This document shows, in pieces, positions 351-25,109 of a DNA stretch of 64,000 nt. The first letter of the stretch is position 1, and every line of letters starts with the position of its first letter. The notes below the pieces were generated by a model. It was not told where the DNA came from and ran no database searches. It saw only the letters and a program-made list of their open reading frames with translations. Origin of the DNA: Ostrinia nubilalis (taxonomy: Eukaryota; Arthropoda; Insecta; Lepidoptera; Crambidae); NCBI RefSeq assembly GCF_963855985.1, contig NC_087109.1, positions 5,662,001 through 5,726,000 of the forward strand, given 5' to 3'. Both the position numbers and the translations under genes were made by a program.

Positions 351-487
351 AAGGCTGAGTTATATTTTAAACTATTATGTTGCATTTTTTACTATAAAAT
401 TATCACTTCACGGGATTTATTGCAACAATATCTATTTTAACGGTAAATAATATTTACCCTTCCGACGTTTCGGCTCGGTTGCACGAG

Positions 488-3040
488 TCATGGTCGCGGG
501 CAGACTGAAGAGATGCGGCGTCGTCTGCTCCGGCGCAATGAGTTTTCTTCACCCACCCGCATTTGCACAATATTTTCGTCAGTGGTACAGTCAGTCCGAC
601 AAACTACACTAACAGTGTCCGGGTTTCTCTGAGACGGCCTAGAACGCGATTTGTACTTCGTTATCACCGGATTCCACGCTGATGATAGGTTAAATCCATC
701 TTCTCGATTGAAATTCTTATGCTTTTTAATTTCAATGGCTTCACGTATCAACCTAACATGGTAATGCCTATCAGTTGAGAGGATTTTCGGGTCATGAAGC
801 TCCATCCAGTGATTAACGTCCGAAGTTAACAAATGTTCAGCTATCGCAGATTTGCACGTCTGTTGGTTCTTTACAGCCGCTATGTGTTCTTTGACTCTTT
901 CAGCTATAGACCGCTTAGTTTGTCCTATATAAGAACTACCACAGCTGCAATCGATCTTATAGACACCCGGCGTCTGAAGAGGTATAATATCTTTTGGCGA
1001 GCGAATTTCCTTCGTTACTTTTGACAACGGACTATATACAGTCTTAATGGAGTATTTGTTGAGTACTGTTCCAATTTTATCCGTTACCCCTTTCACGTAC
1101 GGAAGGAAAGCTGGTTCCCTGCTCACCATTGGTTGTTTATCCCTCTTGAGCCTCCTCTCCATTTGTCTTGTGGTAGCACTGTAGCCATTCCTTCTTAGTA
1201 CCTCCTTCACATGTTTTAGTTCCCCTTCCACATGTTCAGGGTCGCATAGGTTATATGCCCTATTAACCAATGAGGAAATAACTGCTTGAAGATGACGGGG
1301 ATGGTGATGAGAAGAGGCGTGCAGATATCTGTCCGTGTGGGTCGGTTTCCGGTAAACAGAGTGGGCCAAAGCCCCATCCGGTCTCACTGTCACAAGAACA
1401 TCAAGGAAAGCCATGGATCTGTTCCTCTCCATTTCATACGTGAACTTAACCTTTGGATGAACAGAATTTAAGTGCTGTAGATATTGTTCCACTTCTGTTT
1501 GGTTTCCGTTTATGATGCAAAATATATCATCAACATATCTCTTCCAGAACTTAACAATACCGGGGCCGCTCGCTAATGCTTTTTGTTCGAAATGTTCCAT
1601 CCAAATGTTGGCAATCACTGGTGCTACAGGACTTCCCATAGCAACGCCATCAATCTGGAGGTAATATTGGCCTCGATACAAGAGATAGTTTCCGTCCAAA
1701 CAGTTTTGCAAAAGGACAATATATTCATCGGGCAGCTCATTGTCAAACAATCTGTCCTTGATGACTTCCAGGCAATCCTTCAGTGGCACATTGGTAAACA
1801 GTGACTCGACATCGAAACTTACCATTATGTCACCCGGCTCCACTGAGATATTCTTGATAAGCTCAATAAAATGCATCGAGTCTTTTACGTAGGACGATGT
1901 CTTCCCAACTAATGGCTGCAACACTCCAGCAACATGTTTTGCCAACTTATATGTAGGTGAATCAATTTGACTCACGATCGGCCTAAGTGGAACGTTGCTC
2001 TTGTGTATTTTAGGCAGACCATATAGTTTTGGTGGCTGTACGTTTTTTGCTTTATGCAAGTATGTATACACGTCTTCTGTAAATAGCTCTCGGTGCTCCT
2101 GGATGAGGGCGCGAATGCGTCGTGTCACTCTGGCAGTAGGGTTGTATGACACTGGTTTGTATACTGTCGTGTCAGCTAGCATATTTCCAATTTTACTGGC
2201 ATAGTCCTCAGTATTCATAATTACAGTGGCGTTGCCTTTGTCAGCTTTCAGAACGAGTATATCCTGGTTCTGTCGCAGGTCTTTAAGTGCTTGGCGCTCT
2301 TCTGCAGTTACGTTACTTTTCGGGAGCCTAGACTTTCGCAAAATCACTGCTATATCCTGCCTTAAAATGTCAGCATCCGTTGGCGGAACTTTATTGCGGA
2401 TAATAGTCTCCTCTACGCCACAGATTATGCTCTCATACGGTATTCTCTTAGGAGTTAAAGCAAAATTCATCCCCTTCGCCAACACGCTTCGTGCAGCACT
2501 GTCCAATGAAGTATTCGACAAATTGATAACTGTGTGAGTATTTAATGTGTCCGACTGTACCTGAGTGTTCGCACAAATCTCATTCCGCGAAAAATTATCA
2601 CGAAGTTGGCGGGTACACAGCTTTTCGAATTTTCGATTATGACCATTCTCACACAGAACATAAGTGCGGGATGCTTGTAGGTACGTTACCCGATCACATC
2701 TGTCAAAATCCTCACGAGACCACACTACACTGCATTCCAGATGTAAAACATAAAGCTCACTCTGTACCTTGTCTAACTGGCTATACGTATTTTTAATAAG
2801 CTGTTTTAGCAAACGAACACTCGCGTTCCTTAGAATTCTATCCGAAAATGCAATCCCAATACGCGGTTTCAGACGCACACACGTAGGTAATAAGTTCAAA
2901 TCGCGACAGTTTTTTAAAAATGTCAACGATGTTTCAAGGCGCACTTTTTTGTTTCGGAGTAATTCTAGATGTTTTAATTTTGTTACACATTCCGACCCGT
3001 ATCGGTTTGCTATATAATATTTTAAACTATTATGTTGCAT
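488..3040 (-). CDS. Penelope-like reverse transcriptase with GIY-YIG endonuclease
   Basis: This is a single uninterrupted ORF of about 850 aa, a normal PLE length. The frame stays open upstream to an ATG at 3079, but those first 13 residues are antisense of the inverted copy. The native start is the ATG at 3040, whose start is preceded in frame by TAA in the 27-bp restart copy. In numbering from 3079 the domains are: a KADKG block (278-282); RT motifs YGLPKIHK (353-360) and RPIVS (366-370); motif A SFDVESLFTNVP with catalytic D423; motif B GVAMGSPVAPV (478-488); motif C YVDD (515-518); a motif E-like VYRKPTHTDRY; then GIY-YIG as GVYKI (705-709) and SYIGQ (716-720) with a CSCG cysteine pair, R723/R728 and E731. 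The tail RRSRRRR (849-855) is basic and could be nuclear-targeting. RT copies element RNA at a nick made by the endonuclease. All key residues are present, so the protein could be active. Confidence 0.93.
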   Translation of the reverse strand: MQHNSLKYYIANRYGSECVTKLKHLELLRNKKVRLETSLTFLKNCRDLNLLPTCVRLKPRIGIAFSDRILRNASVRLLKQLIKNTYSQLDKVQSELYVLHLECSVVWSREDFDRCDRVTYLQASRTYVLCENGHNRKFEKLCTRQLRDNFSRNEICANTQVQSDTLNTHTVINLSNTSLDSAARSVLAKGMNFALTPKRIPYESIICGVEETIIRNKVPPTDADILRQDIAVILRKSRLPKSNVTAEERQALKDLRQNQDILVLKADKGNATVIMNTEDYASKIGNMLADTTVYKPVSYNPTARVTRRIRALIQEHRELFTEDVYTYLHKAKNVQPPKLYGLPKIHKSNVPLRPIVSQIDSPTYKLAKHVAGVLQPLVGKTSSYVKDSMHFIELIKNISVEPGDIMVSFDVESLFTNVPLKDCLEVIKDRLFDNELPDEYIVLLQNCLDGNYLLYRGQYYLQIDGVAMGSPVAPVIANIWMEHFEQKALASGPGIVKFWKRYVDDIFCIINGNQTEVEQYLQHLNSVHPKVKFTYEMERNRSMAFLDVLVTVRPDGALAHSVYRKPTHTDRYLHASSHHHPRHLQAVISSLVNRAYNLCDPEHVEGELKHVKEVLRRNGYSATTRQMERRLKRDKQPMVSREPAFLPYVKGVTDKIGTVLNKYSIKTVYSPLSKVTKEIRSPKDIIPLQTPGVYKIDCSCGSSYIGQTKRSIAERVKEHIAAVKNQQTCKSAIAEHLLTSDVNHWMELHDPKILSTDRHYHVRLIREAIEIKKHKNFNREDGFNLSSAWNPVITKYKSRSRPSQRNPDTVSVVCRTDCTTDENIVQMRVGEENSLRRSRRRRISSVCPRP

Positions 3041-3043
3041 TTT
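3017..3043 (-). repeat. 27-bp 5'-terminal repeat of the Penelope element (second copy at 362-388)
   Basis: An identical 27-bp segment beginning AAAATGCAACATAATAG on the minus strand is found at the 5' end of the full copy and again directly after its 3' end. It contains the native start codon. The second copy marks where a downstream tandem unit begins and is then cut off at the target duplication. Confidence 0.85.
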
Positions 3044-3045
3044 AA

Positions 3046-4044
3046 CAATATCTACAGCACTTAAATTCTGTTCATCCAAAGGTTAAGTTCACGTATGAAA
3101 TGGAGAGGAACAGATCCATGGCTTTCCTTGATGTTCTTGTGACAGTGAGACCGGATGGGGCTTTGGCCCACTCTGTTTACCGGAAACCGACCCACACGGA
3201 CAGATATCTGCACGCCTCTTCTCATCACCATCCCCGTCATCTTCAAGCAGTTATTTCCTCATTGGTTAATAGGGCATATAACCTATGCGACCCTGAACAT
3301 GTGGAAGGGGAACTAAAACATGTGAAGGAGGTACTAAGAAGGAATGGCTACAGTGCTACCACAAGACAAATGGAGAGGAGGCTCAAGAGGGATAAACAAC
3401 CAATGGTGAGCAGGGAACCAGCTTTCCTTCCGTACGTGAAAGGGGTAACGGATAAAATTGGAACAGTACTCAACAAATACTCCATTAAGACTGTATATAG
3501 TCCGTTGTCAAAAGTAACGAAGGAAATTCGCTCGCCAAAAGATATTATACCTCTTCAGACGCCGGGTGTCTATAAGATCGATTGCAGCTGTGGTAGTTCT
3601 TATATAGGACAAACTAAGCGGTCTATAGCTGAAAGAGTCAAAGAACACATAGCGGCTGTAAAGAACCAACAGACGTGCAAATCTGCGATAGCTGAACATT
3701 TGTTAACTTCGGACGTTAATCACTGGATGGAGCTTCATGACCCGAAAATCCTCTCAACTGATAGGCATTACCATGTTAGGTTGATACGTGAAGCCATTGA
3801 AATTAAAAAGCATAAGAATTTCAATCGAGAAGATGGATTTAACCTATCATCAGCGTGGAATCCGGTGATAACGAAGTACAAATCGCGTTCTAGGCCGTCT
3901 CAGAGAAACCCGGACACTGTTAGTGTAGTTTGTCGGACTGACTGTACCACTGACGAAAATATTGTGCAAATGCGGGTGGGTGAAGAAAACTCATTGCGCC
4001 GGAGCAGACGACGCCGCATCTCTTCAGTCTGCCCGCGACCATGA
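3046..4044 (+). pseudogene. 5'-truncated inverted copy of the Penelope-like ORF
   Basis: The frame starts just after a TAA at 3043-3045 at the junction and runs to the same TGA stop as the full copy (about 332 codons). It lacks the N-terminal domain and RT motifs through YVDD. It keeps the late palm/thumb (FLDVLV onward), the linker and the complete GIY-YIG domain. From the first internal ATG at 3100 its protein is identical to the C-terminal 314 residues of the minus-strand ORF. Alone it could encode only a thumb plus endonuclease fragment, and no promoter for it is evident. Confidence 0.9.
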
Positions 4045-4070
4045 CTCGTGCAACCGAGCCGAAACGTCGG
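4042..4070 (+). ncRNA. Hammerhead-ribozyme-like motif at the Penelope 3' end (mirror copy about 462-490, minus strand)
   Basis: The stop codon TGA is followed by a 4-bp stem (CTCG 4045-4048 with CGAG 4055-4058), then CGAAAC (4060-4065) and GTC (4066-4068). This matches the second half of a type I hammerhead core. Hammerhead motifs are reported in the terminal repeats of many PLEs. The first core box should be CTGATGA but reads ACCATGA, so this may be a decayed or inactive version. A palindrome GGTAAATATTATTTACC lies just downstream. Confidence 0.35.
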
Positions 4071-4138
4071 GAGGGTAAATATTATTTACCGTTAAAATAG
4101 ATATTGTTGCAATAAATCCCGTGAAGTGATAATTTTAA

Positions 4139-12575: not shown

Positions 12576-13042
12576 ATTTTAAATTGTACAAAAACGCAGG
12601 CACATCTAGTGCTTCAATCGTGCACAAGGACGCGTCACTTTGACACGAAATATTTGAGAATTGGGACAAATCGATTGTAGTAAATTGACAATAGCCCAGG
12701 CCCCAGAATTATTTTAGTGTCAACAAAACCATGCGAAGTAGCTGCTGTTGCACTTTTACTTATTACAATTTTTAACTAAAATAATTACATACTAGTTTGA
12801 ACTAAAAGCAATTCTATAAAAACCCGGAGGCTTCACCTTTTACAATATTATATTATGTAGGTATTAAATGTGGAAAAACGTTATCGACGATAACTAAAGT
12901 TATTGAGCTTCTTTTTTGTATACTATTAATTTTCCCGGTAAAAAAGTACTATAGATACGGCCAGCACTACATCCAGGTAACTATTGAGTTGTTAATGGTT
13001 AATTTTTTACCGACTGTACCATGATTTTCCATTTATCTTGAA
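12576..13042. other. Non-coding spacer
   Basis: AT-rich DNA with no ORF of interest and no recognised repeat. Confidence 0.5.
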
Positions 13043-16115: not shown

Positions 16116-17090
16116 TGTCACCCCTGCATGAAACATGTCTCGTACCAGATATTTATTTTTACTATTGGTATAATTGATATTAACATCTTAAATCATTAAT
16201 TAATTCTAATATAATACCATTAACATCTATCTATAATACCTTTGCCCTAAGAAGATGAGATTTTCCAACAGTAACACTTACCTGGCGTGATCACATTAAG
16301 AACAAAAGAGAACAAATCAACAGACAATGGGACTTTTCAAGGCAAGAGTGTATAGGCACTTTGTACCATTCTAAACTGCATCCTACCTGCTTTGTTATGC
16401 ATAGAAAAAACTTCGTGATATGCAATGGGTACTGGACAGAAGAAGCTTGGAGAACAAACTATATACAAATGGATCCTAAAACCCATGTAGACATGGCATC
16501 GACTTAGCCTCGCAAATGTAGAAATACTTTAACGTTTTCAAAATAAAGTTTTAAAAATCTTGATCTGTGCACCTTGGTTTACAAAGTCCACTGAAGTGAT
16601 ACCAAACGTCAAAGAGGGTGTGGAAAATCCTGTAAAGCTTACAACCAAAGACTAGACCTTCATGCAATCTATTTGCTGCATCCCTTCTAAATTCTAAGAA
16701 TTCTGCATTTAGGCTCAGGAGAAAGCGAATAGCATCAATCTGAAAACTTATTGTAAAAGAATCGAGGTGACAAATTAAATCATGGGATATGCTGAGCTGG
16801 AACTGTCATTATTACAAATTCAATTTAATCTGATAATGGGTGATGGCTGATCGCAGATAGATTAAAAAGAGGAAAAATCACTTAAATCATTAATTAATTT
16901 TTCGATATATGCATATCCGAAAAATCAAATTTGTGAGATCTCCTGATCCATTATCTGTACGTTAAATAGTTTGTACCACATTGAAATCAAATAAATGATG
17001 ATTAAGATTCTGATGAAATGTGACACGTAGCCCCTTCTGGCCGAAACTAAGTGTTCCTGTTATAGCCTCGATTATTGCAGTATACTGAAA
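16116..17090. other. Non-coding spacer
   Basis: About 1 kb of AT-rich DNA with no intact ORF. It may include more of the decayed transposon at 15965, but no terminus is recognisable. Confidence 0.4.
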
Positions 17091-18073
17091 GAGTGTATAT
17101 CATAGTTGCGACAAACAAAGGTGCTACAAACGTAGTGGCGACAGTACGTTATGCCGACAATCGATGGCGCGACTGCACATTAGCTCGACGAACGTTAGCG
17201 CGACAGAACGATGGGGCGACAAACGAAAGCACGACAGTACTTTGGAGCGATAAACCTTAGCGCGACATTACTTAGGCTCGACAAACGATTGCACGACAGA
17301 ACCTCCGATCGACAAACTACACTGTGACACAACTTTTTACTCAACGACCTAAAGCATGACAAACATAGAAACAAGTTATTTAAAAAAATATGTATGTGGA
17401 TATTTAGGTTTATTTTTAATCTTACATTTTCAACTTAATGTTAATTATTTCAATTTAATTTGCCATAAGTACGTATCACTTAACTTTAAACTATTATGTT
17501 TACTTTAATTATACACAAAAATAGAATAAAATAAATTATAAAATAGAAATAATAAACGTTAACAAAAATGTACTCTCTGTATTTTTAATATTTTTGAAAT
17601 CACATTAATGTTATACGAAAAAATATTTGATAATGCATAACTAGGTTTTTTTTTTACTTTCATGTTTACTTTCACATTTTTATACAATTACATTTTTGTT
17701 AACGTTTATAATTTAATTTTAAAGTAAACATGTAATTAAAAAATAAACCTAAAGCCTAACTATTATTATACATTACTAATACATCCACATACATAATATG
17801 TTTGTCATGCTTTAGGTCGTTGAGTAAAAAGTTGTGTCACAGTGTAGTTTGTCGATCGGAGGATCTGTCGTGCAATCGTTTGTCGAGCCTAATTAATGTC
17901 GCGCTAAGGTTTGTCGCTCCAAAGTACTGTCGTGCTTTCGTTTGTCGCCCCATCGTTCTGTCGCGCTAACGTTCGTCGAGCTAATGTGCAGTCGCGCCAT
18001 TGATTGTCGGCATAACGTACTGTCGCCACTACGTTTGTAGCACCTTTGTTTGTCGCAACTATGATATACACTC
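17091..18073. mobile_element. Unclassified foldback element with 277-bp TIRs built of a 31-bp periodic array
   Basis: Arms 17091-17367 and 17797-18073 are inverted repeats, both 277 bp, with about four differences that I counted (roughly 98.5% identity). Within each arm a motif, CGACAAACG (A) or CGACAGNAC (B), recurs with starts at 17109, 17124, 17139, 17155, 17170, 17186, 17201, 17217, 17232, 17248, 17263, 17279, 17294, 17310 and 17325. The steps alternate 15 and 16 bp, and from 17139 on the motifs alternate B and A. The 429-bp centre is AT-rich and still partly palindromic (TATGTATGTGGAT and AACGTTAACAAAAATGTA have inverted partners). It has no ORF with transposase features and no clear target duplication. 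It could be a Foldback-like or MITE-like derivative of an unknown DNA transposon. Confidence 0.8.
17109..17333 (+). repeat. Left-arm 15/16-bp alternating motif array (15 units; mirror array in the right arm)
   Basis: Fifteen units of consensus gCGACAnnACgntnnc. Mean spacing is 15.4 bp and the higher-order A/B unit is 31 bp, close to 1.5 and 3 turns of B-DNA. The mirror array lies at about 17831-18055 on the other strand. It looks like an ordered set of protein-binding sites; that role is inference. Confidence 0.8.
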
Positions 18074-18760
18074 ATAAAATATCTTGATACAATAAATATT
18101 AGAAATGAGTGTTTTCCTTTTTTCAAAGGGTTATTAAGTGTACCTATAGCGTTTTTTATGACGCTATATATTTATATACAAATTTATCAATGCAAGATAT
18201 TGTTTTCTTGCTATTTTACATATTTTTTCTAATTACCGTTAGATTAAGTATTAGCCTTATCTAATTACCGTGACCATAAAATTTTTGGGTCTCATTTACG
18301 CGAAAACCGCTTGGAATAATTTGACGCCTTAACGATTGTTAAATTCGTACTTTTCATGTGTTTCATATTTAAATGCGTTTAAGTCAATTAAGCCAAATTT
18401 CAAAAATGATATGGTAATTAGGCTGAGAACGCCTAATCGTGAGAATGACCGTTTAATGCCTATATTTTAGCATGAACATCTTGGACATACGAGTATAAAA
18501 TGAAACTAGCTAATCAGGCTCCGTATATTCCCCACCACCCTGTAAGGTGGAACCATGCAAGATATCTATTACTTAAAAACGTTCTTAAATTAAACAAAAA
18601 TCACTTAAAGAAAAAAGTTTCTTGTAATTTTTGTGTAATTTTTAATTTTCTTTAATTTGTGTTTTGCTATCTACTATGAAGTTACTGTTGTAGACAACAT
18701 AACAGACAACACAGCATAACAGAAATACTTACAAAATGTGTTAAAATTTCAACTGTCTAC
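18074..18760. other. Non-coding spacer
   Basis: No gene. A short hairpin TATAGCG/CGCTATA lies near 18147-18169, and the two CTAATTACCGT copies are at 18232 and 18261. Confidence 0.4.
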
Positions 18761-23597: not shown

Positions 23598-25109
23598 CAG
23601 GGCCGGATCTACCTATGGGCTGATTGGGCTGCAGCCCAGGGCCCCTGGGTTACAAGGGGCCCCCAGATCCCGCTAAAAAGTAGGCAATAATTTGAAAAAA
23701 TAAGTTGACTGTAAAGTCGGTTTACGGACGATATTTTTACGTGACAACGTCATAAGAAAATATTGATTATTAATTGCATACTAAATTTTTGAGATTTTTT
23801 TAAAAAAAATTTTCTTCCAATTACTTCTTGTAAAGAAAACGTAATAACTTTTAAACTAAGAGGTATATCCTGATAAAATAAAAACAGTAATAATGGTAAA
23901 TAGCAGGCGATACTAAAAAAATACATAAAATACTCAGAAAATGGCAACAAATAATAAAAAAAATTATACATTTTGAGAAAAATCTGCATTTTAATTCGTG
24001 TTTTTTTTTGTTATTTGATAAATTTCTCCAAATAATGCCCCCATAACAGATTGTTTTTATTACTTTGTGTTATTCTTTATCGTATTACATTTGTAATACT
24101 AAAAATAGCATGTCTCTATCCCTATCACAATGTTTGCAATGATCGTTTGAACTAAGCCTCTCCGGGCGCGCCATTCAACGCTTCGTTAACAACAAAACTC
24201 AAAGTGGCTCTAGATTTGTAATTTTGATAAAAACAAGTTACATTTCAAATAAAAACAAAAGATTTGGAAGTAAAATAAGCATTTTAGTTAAAATTAAAAT
24301 TGTCTCTACCTGTAGCGGAGAATAATGTGGTGGCAGGCCTTTGTTCAAACGATCATAGCAAATGTTGTGATAGGGATAGAGACTTCCGATTTTTGGTTTT
24401 ACAAAATTAATACGATAGAGAATAATACAAAGTAATAAAAACCACCTGTTATGGGGGCATTTTTTGGAGAAATTTATCAAATAACCAAAATAACACGAAT
24501 TTAAAAGCAGATTTTTTTCAATAGTATAATTTTTTATTATTGGTTGGCATTTTCTGGGCATTTTATGTATTTTTTAGTATCGCCTGTTATTTAGCATTGT
24601 TACTGTTTTTATTTTATCAGGATATACCTCTTAGTTTAAAAGTTATTAAGTTTTCTTTACAAGAAGTAATTGGCAGAAAAAAAATAAAAAAAAATCTCAA
24701 AAATTTAGTATGCAATTTTTAATAAATATTTTCTTATGACGTAGTCACGTAAAAATATCGTCCGTAAACCGACTTTACAGACAACTATTTTTTTTTTAAT
24801 TATTGCCTACTTTTTAGCGGGATCTGGGGGCCCCTTGTAACCCCTCGGCCCTTACGTTACCTAACGTAAGTAATTGGCAGAAAAAAAATTTAAAAAAATC
24901 TCAAACATTTTTTGACCTCTTTTTTGTCGATAAAAATAGGTCTAGTTTCACCTATTTTCATATGTGCACTTTATCGTGACTCACACTGTATGTATAAGAA
25001 TAATATATCATTATAGGAACAGTTTTTTGGCATGGCTATTAGTTGAGTACTAAGATAGGCCCCCAAGTAGTTTCAGCCCAGGGCCCCACAAATTCACGAT
25101 CCGGCCCTG
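23598..25109. mobile_element. hAT snap-back element, 1.5 kb
   Basis: The ends CAGGGCCGGAT and complement (GATCCGGCCCTG) are flanked by the exact 8-bp duplication ACAGGTAC (23590-23597 and 25110-25117), classic hAT. Inside, arms of about 500 bp (23649-24152 and 24343-24843) are inverted repeats with scattered differences around a 190-bp loop. Right of the second arm, AAGTAATTGGCAGAAAAAAA recurs (24868) as a duplication of 24664. The frames on both strands fall within the arms and show no transposase features. Confidence 0.88.

Follow-up and report, generated by a model that had tools for sequence, protein, structure and literature searches.

The window analyzed here, a stretch of 64,000 nucleotides of Ostrinia nubilalis DNA, contains a foldback element without a gene of its own (table 1), the arms of which are reverse complements that align without gaps and are 98.6% alike. 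Each arm opens with an 18-bp terminal stretch, GAGTGTATATCATAGTTG, and continues into a series of 15 CGAC-like units. The interior lying between the arms has no similarity to four MULE proteins in tblastn comparisons, and an Rfam search of the window returned no match above the gathering score.

Table 1. Coordinates of the foldback element and its parts, numbered from the first position of the window.
Feature	Position	Strand	Description
Whole element	17091..18073	.	983 bp; termini GAGTG...CACTC; ends common to copies at other genomic sites
Left arm (terminal inverted repeat, TIR)	17091..17367	+	277 bp; 4/277 mismatches versus right arm
Right arm (terminal inverted repeat, TIR)	17797..18073	-	277 bp; mirror of left arm
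Left terminal stretch, outside the array	17091..17108	+	18 bp; the 26-mer from 17091 is the query of the genome family search
Right terminal stretch, outside the array	18056..18073	-	18 bp; sequence and 26-mer genome search
Left-arm array	17109..17333	+	15 units; steps of 15/16; two alternating types; 31-bp dimer
Right-arm array	17831..18055	-	15 units; mirror copy
Interior	17368..17796	.	AT-rich, non-coding; common to other short copies
Left flank 9-mer	17082..17090	.	5/9 mismatches versus right flank 9-mer (18074-18082), hence no target-site duplication

In arm coordinates the units start at positions 19, 34, 49, 65, 80, 96, 111, 127, 142, 158, 173, 189, 204, 220 and 235, and the steps between them are the same in both arms, namely 15,15,16,15,16,15,16,15,16,15,16,15,16,15. 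In the left arm 12 of the units open with an exact CGAC, the exceptions being unit 2 (CTAC), unit 10 (CGAT) and unit 15 (TGAC); unit 10 reads CGAC in the right arm. From the third unit onward two types of unit, CGACAGNAC-like and CGACAAACG-like, take turns. An initial annotation, made from the letters of the window, had given the same list of intervals and the same two alternating motif types, and had estimated at about four the differences between the arms, of which there are exactly four.

The regularity of the array is far beyond that of shuffled sequence. At lag 31 the identity of the window arm with itself is 0.57 to 0.58, as obtained with two slightly different stretches, and none of 2000 dinucleotide shuffles reached this value, either at lag 31 or at the best lag of the shuffle (lags 5-99 were scanned for one stretch and 8-64 for the other). 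When single units were followed from random starts with steps free to vary between 12 and 19, the 15/16 alternation was recovered in 10 of 11 adjacent step pairs of the window element, the best of 25 shuffles having one alternating pair. The equivalent walk by dimers, with steps free between 26 and 36, gave 31 in all five steps of each window arm; its 40 control shuffles gave at most two steps of 31, with lower scores. Tandem Repeats Finder assigned periods of 31, 15 and 62 to the array, so that both the tandem-repeat and the autocorrelation analyses suggested by the initial annotation sustain the period it had described.

The window contains other repeats besides the foldback element. A reverse-transcriptase frame (Pfam RVT_1) lies on the minus strand at 488-3082, positions 395-1488 and 3044-4137 form an inverted partial copy (99.9% over 1094 bp), and the frame at 3046-4044 includes a stretch that looks GIY-YIG-like by eye, with no Pfam match; the whole of 395-4137 is in our reading probably a Penelope-like element together with a partial copy of itself in inverted orientation. 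Another inverted pair, of about 515 bp and 90% alike, occupies 23647-24159 and 24335-24843; both of its sides open with GGGTTACAAGGGGCCC, and its best lags do not include lag 31. Copies of a further repeat, dispersed and about 230 bp long, are found at 13041, 32039, 37454, 47219 and 55194 in both orientations and are approximately 79-92% alike.

The assembly containing the window (495 Mb in 52 contigs) was searched with the terminus and, as the initial annotation had proposed, with the arm, and other copies were found. The 26-base terminus gave 44 genome matches with three mismatches or fewer (its reversed control gave none), and the arm gave at least 42 matches at E 0.001 or better (40 of 50 candidates scored). 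For the comparison of long arms we used 16 elements, the window copy and L009-L023, the 15 further copies occupying other genomic sites; L024, L053 and L057 were excluded from this count because their second arm is truncated. Alignment of these copies shows that their ends are shared and that five of the 16 (L010, L014, L017, L018 and L021) lie between perfect 9-bp target duplications, with L012 having one mismatch in its 9-bp duplication and L013 showing by eye a possible duplication with a short insertion. The remaining ten long-arm copies have no perfect or one-mismatch duplication; they include the window copy, and in L011 the left terminus itself has been replaced. Loss of the duplication in many copies suggests rearrangement or deletion beside the ends. 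Swapped target duplications, a sign of inversion, were not seen among 45 distinct ends, where all matches were pairs from the same element; with no flank pairing between different copies, nothing points directly to exchange between sites.

The longest copies, L009 (6.6 kb, contig C10) and L010 (5.5 kb, contig C4), were considered as candidates for an autonomous element and rejected, since their long frames are by eye nested retrotransposon proteins; neither copy matches the MULE proteins. The nested frames comprise one of 1362 aa that is gypsy-type gag-pol-like and two, of 512 and 895 aa, that are non-LTR-like. Viral contigs were searched as well: a 24-base portion of the terminus had no exact match among them, and the transposases described below had no relative there.

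The similarity of the two arms can be followed through the variants that are private to single elements. Over arm positions 1-240 the 16 elements hold 27 private variants, 22 of them in one arm and five in both arms of their own element; copying between the arms is the simplest explanation for a private change that both arms of one element have. Among the nine copies of the window type (36 pairs) the divergence between copies is 1.4% in the arms and 2.5% in the interiors, and within a copy 0 to 4 positions distinguish its two arms. The interiors of nine copies have a mean GC content of 19%. Recent spread combined with some arm-to-arm conversion accounts for the similarity of the arms, in agreement with the earlier description of a foldback, non-coding element with recent or homogenised arms. 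The two arms of L014, in contig C19, hold different mixes of window-type and L020-type variants, as if recombined.

One decayed relative still lies beside transposase sequence. This element, L055 in contig C43, has the same terminus as the window family, followed by an arm that is shortened by a 7-bp gap and then undergoes a 62-bp shift of register, equivalent to two dimers. Inward of the arm is a 156-residue open frame corresponding to the N-terminus of a transposase and oriented as in two relatives with long frames, L030 and L031; the frame's upstream end lies 620 bp from the terminus in L055, 787 bp in L030 and 722 bp in L031. By E-value, the best other genome matches of the fragment are L031 (42% identity, 2.8e-22), L030 (36%) and L032 (30%). 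The fragment stops before the MULE domain, its FLYWCH match (E 0.0014, 19.2 bits) is below the Pfam cut-off of 23.6 bits, and neither THAP nor PHD is matched within this N-terminal portion. In the comparison with the four MULE proteins L055 was the sole match among L001-L028, L049-L061 and the window, several of these loci extending just a few hundred bases past the element, and no intact autonomous partner with the termini of the window family was found in the same set. The search for an autonomous element that the initial annotation had recommended has therefore yielded only this decayed one.

The inner arm end of L055 is 100% identical to L020 over 68 bp, and an 86-bp stretch of its interior is 94-97% identical in L020, L021 and L022. 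Because this 86-bp stretch also resembles a dispersed genome repeat (mostly 74-87% among the matches listed), the comparison is support, short of proof, for an origin of the L020-type copies by deletion from an L055-like element.

The relatives L030 and L031 possess both FLYWCH and MULE domains above the Pfam cut-off, and L032 possesses FLYWCH above the cut-off. From their sequence L030 and L031 look complete: they are flanked by perfect 9-bp duplications (CCAGCGTAC and ACCGAATCC, respectively), have TIRs of 208 and 155 bp and contain one long frame each, of 490 and 495 aa. The single other frame of at least 100 aa listed for L030 is one of 121 aa that runs across its arm. With one long frame in each relative, the two-component transposase considered in the initial annotation is not indicated. 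Two matches came from a PDB search, one to FLYWCH with an E of 0.012 and the other weak and unrelated.

The arms of these relatives have the same dimer period as the window element. Lag-31 identity in L030 and in L031 was reached by none of 2000 shuffles each, and the dimer walk gave steps of exactly 31 in both arms of L030 (5/5), in the left arm of L031 (4/4) and in the left arm of L020; the right arm of L031, read beyond its 155-bp TIR, gave dimer steps of 30, 31, 34 and 28. When single units were set free from random starts, the steps in L030 and L031 jittered around 15.5, and we thus rely for these two elements on the 31-bp dimer result only. A strict single-unit alternation in L030, and a near-strict one in L031, had been obtained with a walk seeded with 15.5-bp steps, and was discarded after random starts failed to reproduce the strictness. 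The locus L062, which surrounds the L032 transposase (39% identical), has a one-sided 16-bp array that none of 2000 shuffles equalled, with no strict dimer; a second arm of the L032/L062 element was looked for and not found. In L063 (contig C27, 984-1127) inverted arms of 97 bp, 96% alike, overlap a repeat of 47 bp, close to the length of three 15.7-bp units, next to a transposase piece that is 40-50% identical to the other relatives. L062 and L063 are probably also on the 15-16-bp step.

Other MULE loci of this genome have different periods or none. There are periodic tracts, at most candidate TIRs, of 59 bp in L064 (contig C43, approximately 121-310, flanking another relative) and of 50 bp in L041 (contig C23, approximately 321-480, beside MULE sequence); L029 and L065 have no comparable periodic array; and the distant MULE lineage of L038, L039 and L046 has 38-bp tandem repeats, L038 and L046 having in addition the terminus CCCTTCGGCCGTTAAGG and duplications of 8 bp. 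The 31-bp register is accordingly a property of the window family, L030 and L031 and not of the genome's MULEs at large; it recurs in families with transposases that are 36-63% identical (the lowest value being that of L055 versus L030). A scoring matrix of the units applied across families gave a score for L031 (type A) that was reached by 11 of 500 shuffles and a score for L062 (pooled) that was reached by none of 500, the type A score of L062 being higher on the reverse than on the forward strand. The result for L030 was not significant, and its unit sequence is not recognisably common with that of the window family.

These data bear on whether the array has a function at all. It could be a passive minisatellite that grew from a 15+16 dimer through slippage or unequal exchange, the alternation of types being a matter of pedigree with no role in binding. 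Changes by whole units are what such a process would leave, and they occur: one arm of L019 has a 46-bp deletion (15+16+15), L055 is shifted by two dimers, and the 47-bp repeat of L063 lies near three units. Relatives with other repeat lengths exist, and within the family the unit motifs are not more conserved than the spacers (9 events in 126 positions versus 6 in 91). Against this account, units of the same type, as placed by the walk seeded with 15.5-bp steps, differ on average at 36-49% of their positions (window and L030) and yet keep an exact 31-bp step, and the register recurs among the diverged families described above. Distinct indels are also fewer in arms than in interiors (one interval per 17 substitutions versus 32 per 75; Fisher p 0.04), a deficit that is weak, with p rising to 0.30 once indels near homopolymers or AT runs are dropped. 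Variation within the family thus leaves constraint on the array not proven, and a passive origin of the array is in our judgment possible, though not the probable explanation.

With regard to classification, the initial annotation had known of no superfamily with this architecture, a view that has to be revised since the Phantom/Muta group has it, as in Muta1 (PMC5225508) and in L030 and L031. Muta1 of Aedes aegypti is described as having nine 12-bp repeats separated by 3-4-bp spacers, duplications of 8-9 bp and a FLYWCH transposase, whereas Muta5 has nine copies of a 15-bp repeat; subterminal tandem repeats are reported there for 10 of 12 Muta families with long TIRs (PMC5225508). A review places Muta within Phantom, which is its group 20 (PMC6446971). 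The elements studied here resemble Muta1 and Muta5, as those are described, in having a terminal motif followed by tandem units at a 15-16-bp step, a FLYWCH transposase (Muta's own; here in the relatives) and many non-autonomous derivatives. They differ from Muta1 in the 15 units of two alternating types with an exact 31-bp dimer, the spacers of Muta1 being given in the text available to us just as 3-4 bp, and the palindromic terminal motif reported for Muta1 is not evident by eye in the window element. Of the features that characterize Phantom/Muta elements, the duplication of 8-10 bp corresponds to the 9 bp of this family (five perfect cases and one with a mismatch in 16) and is absent at the window copy, while the long TIR with tandem units, a frequent rather than universal feature, is present.

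Further parallels are found in Tm1 of root-knot nematodes, for which 13-15-bp units, mostly 9-bp duplications and a 496-aa transposase with FLYWCH and MULE domains are described (PMC3169594). Tm1 shares with the present elements the composite TIRs of tandem units, the predominance of 9-bp duplications and the domain combination of the transposase; unlike the window arms, its units are of 13-15 bp, mostly 14, and their number is given as unequal between the two ends. Tetris of Drosophila virilis, a foldback element with no known transposase, was assigned to Mutator by its duplications of 8-10 bp (PMC4079207).

Membership in the Rehavkus or NOF-FB group of long-TIR elements, rather than in Phantom, is a rival assignment that we find very improbable. 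Rehavkus is listed with 9-bp duplications and TIRs of 26-400 bp (PMC6446971), and the arms of Drosophila FB have repeats of similar length to the dimer, in blocks of five repeats of 27-31 bp (PMC7642927); FB as described differs from the window element in having several such blocks and long end sequences. Against the assignment stands the L055 fragment, the relatives of which are FLYWCH+MULE transposases and which itself matches FLYWCH weakly, Rehavkus and NOF having been weighed by description. The PHD finger that characterizes the Rehavkus transposase had no match in L055, as far as this N-terminal fragment extends. Very improbable, too, is the reading that the array acts as RNA, read-through transcripts forming a stem of 277 bp and so supplying small-RNA silencing: inverted arms so nearly identical would suit it, but it accounts for neither the regularity of the steps nor their recurrence in other families. 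A Galileo-like foldback of the P superfamily, in which the long TIRs would hold THAP binding sites, is hardly credible, because Galileo, although similar in its long TIRs, which are repetitive within and offer several binding sites to the transposase (PMC3688188), has a P-type transposase with THAP domain, whereas the present family has 9-bp duplications and a partner fragment that is related to MULE transposases and, as far as this N-terminal fragment extends, has no THAP match.

The element is therefore not a new superfamily but an example of the known Mutator/Phantom kind, and is best filed as Phantom/Muta, a placement that rests on domains and architecture, the Phantom/Muta proteins themselves having been weighed by description. 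We consider it very likely that it is a non-autonomous, foldback-type Phantom/Muta MULE, mobilised by a FLYWCH/MULE transposase made elsewhere, with an array that is most likely bound repeatedly. Precedents exist for both parts of this reading: non-autonomous copies of Muta1 were mobilised in yeast (PMC5225508), the long arms of Galileo have multiple transposase binding sites (PMC3688188), and in plant Mutator elements the long TIRs are said to contain binding sites of the transposase (PMC3310237), even if in 2013 such a role for the arm repeats of Foldback and Phantom was stated to be still untested (PMC3688188). The idea of a docking array for a transposase, already voiced in the initial annotation, is plausible.

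In the mechanism that we propose, the element, having no gene of its own, would be moved in trans by a transposase with a FLYWCH zinc finger and a MULE domain, the finger being, from the domain content, the natural candidate for contacting DNA. The transposase would most likely bind the units of the array repeatedly, probably with one subunit per 15-16 bp and in pairs, the two unlike types of unit being half-sites of a 31-bp dimer site. Such repeated binding would bring the two ends together, after which the transposase would cut at the GAGTG/CACTC ends and insert the element with a 9-bp staggered cut.

Helical arithmetic qualifies the geometry of this binding. At 10.5 bp per turn neighbouring units are about 154 and 189 degrees apart, and they do lie on roughly opposite faces of the DNA, as the initial annotation had supposed; its further notion that each type forms a face-aligned row along the whole arm does not hold, since every dimer drifts by -17 degrees, or about -103 degrees over six, and the dimers would remain in phase only near 10.33 bp per turn. 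Local pairing of units fits the helical numbers better than one face-aligned row.

A more specific proposal, which we put forward as a conjecture and judge rather unlikely, is that the 15/16 alternation, that is the 31-bp dimer, is itself a conserved recognition feature of this Phantom lineage that outlasts the sequence of the units, since non-identical half-sites of 15+16 bp would be the docking place for an asymmetric dimer of the transposase or for a filament of such dimers. We found no description of a strict 15/16 alternation in the titles and abstract openings of mainly open-access literature, a silence that is weak evidence of novelty. The exact 31-bp register recurring in diverged families is possibly the new part of these observations.

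What initially could not be named may now be called a MULE derivative of Phantom type, one of whose relatives, though decayed, has remained beside transposase sequence. A structural curiosity thereby turns into the idea that in foldback arms the spacing of units can outlast their sequence, and L030 and L031, with their long open transposase frames, offer material for trying the idea that the array is bound. The exact 31-bp register shared by diverged families is the part that deserves the attention of specialists.
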